64,000 nt of DNA from Chloroflexota bacterium (GTDB lineage Bacteria > Chloroflexota > Anaerolineae > Anaerolineales > UBA4823), in the NCBI GenBank assembly GCA_029782365.1, contig JAKOUW010000160.1:248001-312000 (forward strand), read 5' to 3'. The position numbers and the translations under genes are program-made. How positions within the stretch are numbered: position 1 is the stretch's first letter; each line of letters starts with the position of its first letter. Of this stretch, positions 56,035-58,283 are shown one piece after another. The notes beneath the pieces are model-generated. The model was not told the DNA's origin and searched no databases. It saw nothing but the letters and a program-made list of their open reading frames with translations.

Positions 56035-56937
56035 TTATTCCCCTTTGGCCAAGGTTTGCAGTTTATTCGCCACTTCGCGCCATTGGATCTTGGAAATGCC
56101 GAGCTTCTGGCGAATTTTGTTTGGTTCCACGCCAGACAGCCAATCGGTGAGTGCACAAGTCCACCGGCACATGTCAAAAGAAAGGTGTTTAGTCAAACCA
56201 GCGGCGTTGCCCAGGTCTTCCAGCAGGTATTCTAAACGACGCTGAGACCAGGGGAATACTTTTTCATCAAGCGGGTACTGAGCAATATATTCCTGGTAGG
56301 CGGCGATCCATTCCGGTGTAAGCGCAATTTTGCGCTCTTTGTAACGGTTCTGTGGGCTGGCGTAACGCACAAACAGGTAAGGGCCTTCCGGCGCCTCCAG
56401 GGCCAGGTGATTGGGATGTATGTTCAGGGTTTCAACTTTCTTGATGCCAGTGATCAACAGCAAACTGACCAGTGTATAGGTGCGGGCATCCGGTTTTTGA
56501 GCGCGGCGCATACGGTCGGCTGTATCCAACACAGCCTGGGTTTCATCAGGCGTGAGCGCCTGGGGCAAGGGACTGATTGCTGAAAACTGAACGACTTTCT
56601 CTGCCGGATCCGCCAGGATGACGCCATATTGGGTAAGCCAGCGAAAGAAGGCCTTGAGCGAGGTAATACGGCGTGAAAGGCTTTTGGGGCTGCAAGGCAC
56701 ACCGCGGCCTTCTTGCAGCCATTTGAGAAAATTATTGAGATCGGTTGTGCTGAAGCTGCCAACGCCTCGATCAGGCGGCATATGGCCTGCCAGCAGAAGG
56801 ATATCAGCGGCAAAAGCCTTCACCGTGTGCGGTGAATTTCCCTGGTCGGCCAGATAAATTCGCCAGGCGCTGACTGCACCCGCCAAGGGAGTCGCAGCAT
56901 TGATATGAGCGCTGGGCGGAATGGGAGAGTCGGGCAT
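56035..56937 (-). CDS. Xer-like tyrosine recombinase lacking catalytic residues
   Basis: A 300-residue protein with the two-domain layout of XerC/XerD. The SAM-like N-terminal domain (AWRIYLADQGNSPHTVKAFAADI) is followed by the catalytic fold (about 120-300). Key residues are changed. The first Arg of TGLR is Lys (TGIKK). HxxR reads SFDMCRW, with Asp for His and Arg retained. LGH reads LGI, and the Tyr nucleophile position is Ala (QWREVANKL). The YKER hairpin Lys is present. The frame is intact, with GAGGA before the ATG, so it is probably a DNA-binding protein and not a pseudogene. Alignment to XerD was done by eye. Confidence 0.82.
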   Translation of the reverse strand: MPDSPIPPSAHINAATPLAGAVSAWRIYLADQGNSPHTVKAFAADILLLAGHMPPDRGVGSFSTTDLNNFLKWLQEGRGVPCSPKSLSRRITSLKAFFRWLTQYGVILADPAEKVVQFSAISPLPQALTPDETQAVLDTADRMRRAQKPDARTYTLVSLLLITGIKKVETLNIHPNHLALEAPEGPYLFVRYASPQNRYKERKIALTPEWIAAYQEYIAQYPLDEKVFPWSQRRLEYLLEDLGNAAGLTKHLSFDMCRWTCALTDWLSGVEPNKIRQKLGISKIQWREVANKLQTLAKGE

Positions 56938-57003
56938 AGAATCCTCGTTTCTGCAATCAATAAATTGCGTATAGAAGAATTTTAGCCCAAATGTTCGGTA
57001 TTG

Positions 57004-57573
57004 TCAAGAAGTTGTTACACCAACAAGTCCCAATTCAGGGGCAATGGTGCGCATGGCTGTGATGACGTTGCCCACATGCTCCCATAATTCGACGCCGAAA
57101 TCAGCCGCTGCTTTGGCCATATCTGCTCGATCTGTGCCGGCTGCAAAAGCTTTATCCTTCCATTTCTTCTTGACCGAAGATGGCTCCAGGTCATAAAGTG
57201 ATCGTGAGGGGCGCACGAGCGCAACTGCAGTTACCAACCCGGTAATTTCATCGCAGGCGAGCAGGGCTTTTTCCATGCGACTCTGGCGCGGCACTCCCGT
57301 GTGATCAGCATGGCTGAGCACAGCGCGCACGATCAACTCAGGCACGCCTCGTTCTCGCAGAATTGGTGCACCTGCCTGGGGATGCTCATCCAGGGTTGGA
57401 TGGATTTCCCAATCAAAATCGTGGATCAGGCCGGTCAATCCCCAAGTTTCGACATCTTCGTTATGAAGATTGGCGTAAAAGCGCATGCAGGCCTCCACCG
57501 AGAGCATGTGGCGCACCAGGCTTTCATTTTTCACAAATTCGCGCACGAACGCCAGGCCTTCATCGCGAGTCAT
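57004..57573 (-). CDS. HD-domain phosphohydrolase-like protein
   Basis: A 189-residue protein of the HD superfamily. ESLVRHMLSVEACMRFYA supplies the first His, GLIHDFDWE the HD pair, and AVLSHADHTG a further metal-binding His. Substrates of this group of small stand-alone HD proteins are unknown; nucleotides are likely. The C-terminal region has a conserved-looking SVKKKWKDKAFAAG. It overlaps the upstream YdcF-like gene by 14 bases. Confidence 0.85.
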   Translation of the reverse strand: MTRDEGLAFVREFVKNESLVRHMLSVEACMRFYANLHNEDVETWGLTGLIHDFDWEIHPTLDEHPQAGAPILRERGVPELIVRAVLSHADHTGVPRQSRMEKALLACDEITGLVTAVALVRPSRSLYDLEPSSVKKKWKDKAFAAGTDRADMAKAAADFGVELWEHVGNVITAMRTIAPELGLVGVTTS

Positions 57574-58252
57574 AAGAGTCCTCCAATAGAATTTCGCTTG
57601 TGTTCTCGAAGATCGGTTCCGGCTTTCCGAGGATAGGAGCCGGGTGGGTAATATGCACTTCTAGCATCGCCGTCAGAGTGGCAGGAAACTCACGCAAATC
57701 CCACCAGAGCAAGGCTGAACGACGGTATGCCTGGCGATCGGCAGGCACACCGTAAGCTTCCAGACCCAGCGCCTGGCAGGTATACAAGGCGCGTGGTAGA
57801 TGAAAGTTTTGTGTTACCAGAATGGCTGACCGCAAGCCGAAAATTGCCTGTGCACGATAGCAGGTGTCGTATGTGCGCCGTCCGGCGTAGTCCAGCACAA
57901 TGGCTTGCTCGGGTACGCCGAGATCGAGCGCATGCTGCCGCATGGCAGCCGGCTCATTATAACTATCTGTGCTGTTATCGCCGCTCATGAGAAGCTTTTC
58001 AATTTTTCCTGCGAAGTACAATTCTGCCGCAGTTGCTACGCGGTCACTCAGCACCGGCGTTGGGCTGCCGTCGCGCCACAGTCCGGCCCCGAATACAATC
58101 GCGGCGCGCTGAGCTGGCACATCCTGAACTGTATATAACCTCGGTAAGGCTGCCAGAGAAGTGATCAGACGGGAGATCAGCAGGGATGCCAGCCCTAACC
58201 CCGCGCTCCAGGCGAGCAGGTGAGTGAAAAAGGAAAGGGATTTCTTTAACAT
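57560..58252 (-). CDS. YdcF/SanA/ElyC-family (DUF218) protein
   Basis: A 230-residue membrane-anchored protein with one N-terminal helix (about 8-30). The DUF218 core has AAIVFGAGLWRDGSPTPVLSDRVATAAELY, LLMSGDNSTDSYNEP, and ILVTQNFHLPRALYTCQALG. Homologues act in envelope or polysaccharide metabolism (SanA, ElyC). The ATG at 58252 was preferred because the protein then begins with KK and the helix; a longer start at 58279 is possible. Confidence 0.9.
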   Translation of the reverse strand: MLKKSLSFFTHLLAWSAGLGLASLLISRLITSLAALPRLYTVQDVPAQRAAIVFGAGLWRDGSPTPVLSDRVATAAELYFAGKIEKLLMSGDNSTDSYNEPAAMRQHALDLGVPEQAIVLDYAGRRTYDTCYRAQAIFGLRSAILVTQNFHLPRALYTCQALGLEAYGVPADRQAYRRSALLWWDLREFPATLTAMLEVHITHPAPILGKPEPIFENTSEILLEDSYDSR

Positions 58253-58283
58253 GAGTAAGATTGTACTATAAGGCTGCATCTGT

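Follow-up and report, generated by a model that had tools for sequence, protein, structure and literature searches.

A window of 64,000 nucleotides was analyzed from a Chloroflexota bacterium (Anaerolineae; Anaerolineales; UBA4823; assembly GCA_029782365.1, contig JAKOUW010000160.1, positions 248,001 to 312,000), and all positions below are those of this window. Its minus strand carries, between 56035 and 56937 (ATG at 56937, stop codon ending at 56035), a gene for a 300-residue protein (P0001) that has the tyrosine recombinase fold of the Xer proteins and has lost both catalytic histidines and the nucleophilic tyrosine; it is referred to here as the dead Xer. Pfam identifies a clear N-terminal SAM-like core-binding domain at residues 24–103 (56629–56868; Phage_int_SAM_1, PF02899, 1.4e-9), followed by a catalytic-type domain at residues 127–283 (56089–56559; Phage_integrase, PF00589, 3.4e-6) that scores barely above the cutoff (27.4 versus 27.1 bits). 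The protein falls below the NCBIfam cutoffs for both the XerC and XerD equivalogs (TIGR02224, 73 versus 335 bits; TIGR02225, 69 versus 330 bits). An AlphaFold2 model built from 64 of the 81 rows of the orthologue alignment (predicted local distance difference test, 88.6; predicted template modelling score, 0.64) contains both domains of the recombinase fold. Its structural matches include Cre and lambda Int as well as XerA (Z 20.0 over 253 residues, with a large root-mean-square deviation of 14.6 that probably reflects domain movement) and XerH (Z 19.4, 4.5 Å over 277 residues). The statement of the first-pass annotation, which did not give the strand, that fold and length are kept without a stop codon is thus borne out.

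The same annotation had read K-D-R-I-A by eye in place of the active R-H-R-H/W-Y set, and alignment to intact Xer proteins, in which R/H/R/H occupies the first four columns in 9/9 rows, gives exactly these residues. K166 (codon 56440–56442, in the motif TG-I-K-K) replaces the first catalytic Arg, D255 (56173–56175) replaces the His of HxxR, which reads DMCR, I281 (56095–56097) replaces the His/Trp of LGH, which reads LGI, and A290 (56068–56070) occupies the place of the Tyr, nine residues after column 281, in a column that varies among S, F, G, N, K, H, R, L and A. The second catalytic Arg is retained as R258 (56164–56166) and the usual acidic residue as E169. The description of the pentad as removed was therefore slightly too strong, since the residues actually lost are the two His and the Tyr; Arg II is strictly kept, and Arg I is conservatively replaced by Lys. 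The canonical β-hairpin Lys aligns nearest to residues 197–198, and K200 was dropped as a candidate for it for this reason. No alternative R-H-R-H-Y set was found elsewhere in the protein, and none of the 81 orthologues has a Tyr within residues 281–298. The tail after column 281 has a median of 20 residues, versus 28–31.5 in intact Xers, and forms a single helix in the monomer model.

The altered residues are themselves conserved. In the 81-row alignment, K166, K167 and R258 are each present in 81/81 rows, D255 in 76/81, and column 281 is V, I or L in 81/81. Among 115 rows from the order Anaerolineales, positions 166, 167, 169, 198, 200, 258 and 259 are each invariant; K166, K167 and R258 are found in 115/115, D255 in 109/115, and V/I/L at 281 in 115/115, and a His is never found at 255 or 281, nor a Tyr among the 16 residues that follow 281. 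The 81 rows share 61 invariant columns, 18 of which hold Lys or Arg, compared with 35 Lys or Arg among all 300 residues (Fisher p 1.1e-5), so that Lys and Arg are kept both at the former active site (K166, K167 and R258) and at many other invariant positions. The ratio of nonsynonymous to synonymous substitution rates (dN/dS, Nei–Gojobori) is 0.02–0.11 in the ten closest pairs, with a median of 0.216 and a maximum of 0.43 over 515 pairs with dS<1.5, the larger values at larger dS being affected by saturation. The gene is under strong purifying selection, and the random decay among orthologues that would have spoken against the first-pass annotation was looked for and is absent.

Relatives of the protein were sought in genome contigs and in viral, phage and plasmid sets. 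Genome contigs contain 187 matches; among the top 80 of these, identity is 60–70% and every record title names Chloroflexi/Chloroflexota or a taxon within it, such as Anaerolineales or Thermanaerothrix. Orthologues include those of Anaerolinea thermolimosa (L052) and Thermanaerothrix daxensis (L007). The gene is present in 263 of 297 genomes of the class that are at least 90% complete (207/235 of those with low contamination), nearly always as a single copy; the 34 genomes without it include several of family f9. For the order, it occurs in 37/37 genomes listed in the class survey and in 36/36 of a scan of 400 genomes across the phylum. Few candidates were scored per genome, and many of the genomes are drafts (one locus, L353, is cut).

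A sigma-70-like promoter precedes the gene on the minus strand, with a −35 box TTGACA (57002–57007) and a −10 box TAAAAT (56979–56984) separated by a 17-nt spacer (11/12 matches), and between this promoter and the start codon lies a 9-bp element, CTATACGCA (56966–56974; consensus CTAYRCGMA), which is a putative operator. The core CTA[CT][AG]CG was identified upstream of 80/81 orthologues, versus 2.9% in shuffled sequence; the complete consensus is found in 79 of these 80 rows and a sigma-70-like promoter in 76. Relative to the end of the −10 box, the element starts at −2, overlapping the box, in 40 rows and at +3 to +18 in 36; since it can sit inside the −10 box, it probably acts as DNA rather than as RNA. 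A second copy is present in 27 rows, at spacings of only 13 (17 rows), 18 (7 rows) or 19 (3 rows). By eye, the element was also recognized at three loci of other families (L119, L125 and L127) and, reversed, at three more (L117, L123 and L124). Genes for HD-domain and DUF218 proteins (57004–58279) lie immediately upstream on the same strand, the −35 box overlapping the HD gene's stop codon.

The element is largely private to this gene. In the genome under study, the pattern TTGAC-N16..44-CTAYRCGMA has 9 matches versus 16 with a reversed control, and by eye only the match at the dead gene resembles a promoter. In 14/14 relatives tested, a promoter-plus-element match lies at the dead gene, as judged by comparing coordinates with the phylum scan; the 46 other matches in these genomes, which by eye include a stretch of 16S rRNA in several of them, compare with 169 control matches. 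No other promoter with this arrangement was recognized in the 15 genomes inspected. A tandem form of the element gave 20 matches in 61 genomes and 14 in the control, with the dead gene accounting for 7 of the 20 matches and 6 of the 19 places. When the tandem form was made tighter, 151 genomes yielded 38 matches versus about 74 in the control; of the 33 matches assigned to a place, 23 of the 30 fetched lie at the dead gene, as do three more by coordinates (in genomes G005, G112 and G377), and seven lie elsewhere. Control by LexA through the element was considered and rejected: lexA is present in 19/19 genomes, and among the 11 upstream regions parsed the element occurs in none and an SOS-type box in nine.

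These observations suggest that the dead Xer is, on balance, probably a vertically inherited chromosomal Xer paralogue that is no longer a recombinase and now acts as a sequence-specific DNA-binding protein repressing its own promoter. The core-binding and catalytic-type domains, which together form a clamp, would bind CTAYRCGMA without cutting it and would thereby block RNA polymerase at the gene's own promoter, and autorepression would hold the level of the protein constant. Its main work is probably not a promoter regulon based on CTAYRCGMA, because no other such promoter was recognized in the 15 genomes. In the least certain step of this scheme, the protein, with its dosage controlled, may instead bind a partner protein or a few sites outside promoters. 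That a tyrosine recombinase without its nucleophile could only bind DNA or a partner, as the first-pass annotation proposed, remains the simplest reading, with purifying selection acting on an intact recombinase fold; of the two repurposed roles it suggested, regulation gains support from the private conserved element in the gene's own promoter, and chromosome architecture is neither supported nor contradicted.

Several points weigh against autorepression. The element is missing upstream of two loci (L041, the one exception among the 81, and L118), and distant branches carry a different box, AGAACAYNTGTGC, or nothing recognizable in its place. Seven of the 30 fetched tandem matches lie away from the dead gene, so other targets are possible, and a tandem CTATACGCA pair near position 1500 of loci L232, L233 and L234 is conserved in three genomes of one family, not beside a dead Xer gene. 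This pair is a candidate second target; the gene downstream of it appears to encode a LysM-like protein. A private element could also be read by another dedicated regulator.

This last point belongs to an alternative that we consider unlikely, though it is the most probable of the rivals, in which the dead Xer serves another purpose by binding DNA or a partner, such as target selection, nucleoid organization, replication or repair, and an unrelated dedicated regulator reads the element. It is consistent with the recognition of the arrangement at no other promoter, and TnsF provides an example of a dead tyrosine recombinase used in target selection (PMC10293859). In two distant families, moreover, the box AGAACAYNTGTGC, which resembles an SOS box, was identified at a dead or half-dead Xer gene in 8/8 genomes (upstream regions of L130–L132, L135, L161–L163 and L165; 16 matches versus 2 in the control), hinting at a link to DNA damage in these branches. 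The box ends in GTGC, not GTTC, and its likeness to a LexA site is one of resemblance only. By eye, further copies of AGAACAYNTGTGC lie upstream of a gene that reads as dnaN (L259), which is compatible with this alternative, and upstream of a small SWIM-like gene (L267). An external regulator with a single target conserved across the order is, however, less parsimonious than autoregulation.

Anaerolineales also possess a distinct intact Xer family, in which each of the 19 distinct rows aligned (excluding L223, a different integrase, and counting L197 and L217, which are duplicates, once) shows R, K, H, R, H and Y. The XerD cutoff is passed in 0/61 genomes of the order versus 4/14 control genomes. 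Pairs of the XerC/XerD type are the textbook two-subunit arrangement, and the dead Xer could accordingly assist the active Xer in resolving chromosome dimers, in a heteromeric synapse in which only the active subunit cuts and the non-catalytic dead one places or regulates it. This precedent, and the finding of the intact family in 28/36 genomes of the order, speak for such a partnership; the dead gene, however, is found in 36/36 genomes of the order, with the reservation that absences are soft, since at most five candidates per genome were scored in the first look. Furthermore, the upstream signals of the two genes are different. A near-symmetric, dif-like palindrome, GATAA-N6-TTAT, is found in 14/19 upstream regions of the intact gene, versus 0.06 expected, and at only 1/81 dead genes, and CTAYRCGMA is found at 0/19 intact genes, which also disposes of an operator common to both. 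The palindrome usually lies within a longer one (e.g., ATGCTTTTGATAAGTATCATTATCAAAAGCAT), and near-perfect palindromes of the type TTTTGATAA-GTATCA-TTATCAAAA stand directly upstream of the intact gene (L204–L222, e.g., L215, L209, L217 and L210). It is likely to be either dif or an operator, and the arrangement is reminiscent of those single-Xer systems in which dif adjoins the gene. The paralogues thus seem to have different sites, which argues against a simple partnership, and because the tail of the dead Xer is short and has one helix in the model, its subunits may lack the exchange of C-terminal helices that is usual in Xers. We therefore judge a partnership quite improbable.

That the protein is still a recombinase with altered chemistry is very improbable: it retains Arg II, Glu169 and, in place of Arg I, a basic residue, but among the dead and half-dead rows examined none has a His at either catalytic position, and in the 115 rows of the order the Tyr is lacking throughout. 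A decaying pseudogene or stray mobile-element integrase, for which only the marginal Phage_integrase score could speak, can be practically dismissed, decay being ruled out by a dN/dS far below 1 with 61 invariant columns, and mobile carriage by the absence of confirmed relatives in IMG/VR (0), by plasmid matches that all have less than 60% identity (16 records, the five listed at 23.5–30.2%) and two phage matches at 21.9%, and by the single-copy core distribution with conserved neighbors. Among these neighbors, a PP-loop (TilS-like) gene is convergent at position +1 in 79/164 dead-gene loci. A same-strand neighbor upstream resembled the LCP family by eye, but the piece submitted had no Pfam match; beyond these two genes, the neighborhood offered no clue to function.

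Beyond Anaerolineales, strong matches in the phylum scan were found in other Anaerolineae families, in the large-genome families f31, f49, f23 and f47, and in families f51, f57, f67, f73 and f83. In a tree of 90 hand-picked rows, whose root is not fixed and in which L155 and L188 form long branches, a branch with 100/100 support separates 54 dead or half-dead rows from 36 intact Xers. None of 164 dead or half-dead rows has a His at 255 or 281, and position 166 is Lys except in f57-type rows, which have T, S or N there and Arg at 167. Among the 16 residues that follow column 281, a Tyr is present in 10/10 f57-type, 15/16 large-genome, 1/5 f51/f73 and 1/18 other Anaerolineae rows; in the rows printed it stands at +12 or +13, compared with +9 in intact Xers. 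Within the clade with INTERMEDIATE states, the half-dead relatives keep the Tyr and rows of the order have none. Because the half-dead branches keep the Tyr without the His pair, a reading of the tree that starts from the intact Xers would place the loss of the His pair and Arg I before that of the Tyr. One 13.7-Mb genome holds a second dead copy, L155 (G364:C10), which is very divergent and has a Cys at Arg II. These states raise the tentative idea, which we consider possible but doubtful, of a host-encoded dead Xer class that is phylum-level and vertical, that had a single origin in which the His pair and Arg I disappeared, the Tyr at first remaining and later being lost as well, and that in Anaerolineae turned into a chromosomal DNA-binding factor which titrates itself and has a 9-bp site of its own. 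It would be the bacterial equivalent of the reuse of this fold in Ndc10 for chromosome maintenance.

The dead Xer shares with the Xer recombinases (XerA, XerH, XerC/XerD) the two-domain fold, the length and a chromosomal single-copy gene, and differs from them in the Lys at Arg I, the missing catalytic His and Tyr, the short tail and the low XerC score. Any Chloroflexota gene of this family that carries the annotation of a XerC-like recombinase is therefore not a recombinase. Ndc10 of yeast CBF3 and the Crypton-derived host proteins are recombinase-fold proteins recruited for DNA binding; they are eukaryotic, and their likeness to the dead Xer lies in reuse of the fold. No paper describing the family was found in the open-access literature, most subscription papers lying outside the search.

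The proposed function has a parallel in MrpR (YopR), the master repressor of prophage SPbeta (PDB 8A0A, 8BJ6, 8BPZ), which is described as a repressor with a tyrosine recombinase fold whose recombinase function has been lost, with V137/S138 in the place of Arg I and N254 and V291 in those of the two His (Table 3 of that study), a Y304 needed for DNA binding that lies 13 residues after V291, and about ten target promoters and a 15-bp motif (PMC10516654). The AlphaFold2 model matches it at Z 13.0–13.5, whereas a sequence search at E≤0.001 reported no match to it. The Val-to-Tyr distance of 13 recurs in the f57 branch; the order, by contrast, has no equivalent of Y304 (0/115). MrpR is a prophage gene that keeps its Tyr, whereas the dead Xer is a core chromosomal gene of another phylum with a 9-bp element recognized only at its own promoter. 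SroF of phage phi3T (PDB 9RD5, 9RGL; Z 14.6) has the same fold and, according to its PDB titles, which with the fold are the basis of this comparison, is a DNA-bound repressor with an antirepressor. In TnsF of Tn6022, an inactivated tyrosine recombinase domain is reused in DNA targeting, and the protein is transposon-borne, has a zinc-finger N-terminus and works with TniQ (PMC10293859); the dead Xer has none of these signs. The authors of the MrpR study considered such recruitment probably more widespread (PMC10516654). The bacterial dead tyrosine recombinases encountered belong to phages or transposons, whereas the gene described here belongs to the core of an entire bacterial class; its relatives display intermediate states of catalytic loss and a short candidate operator makes the function directly testable.
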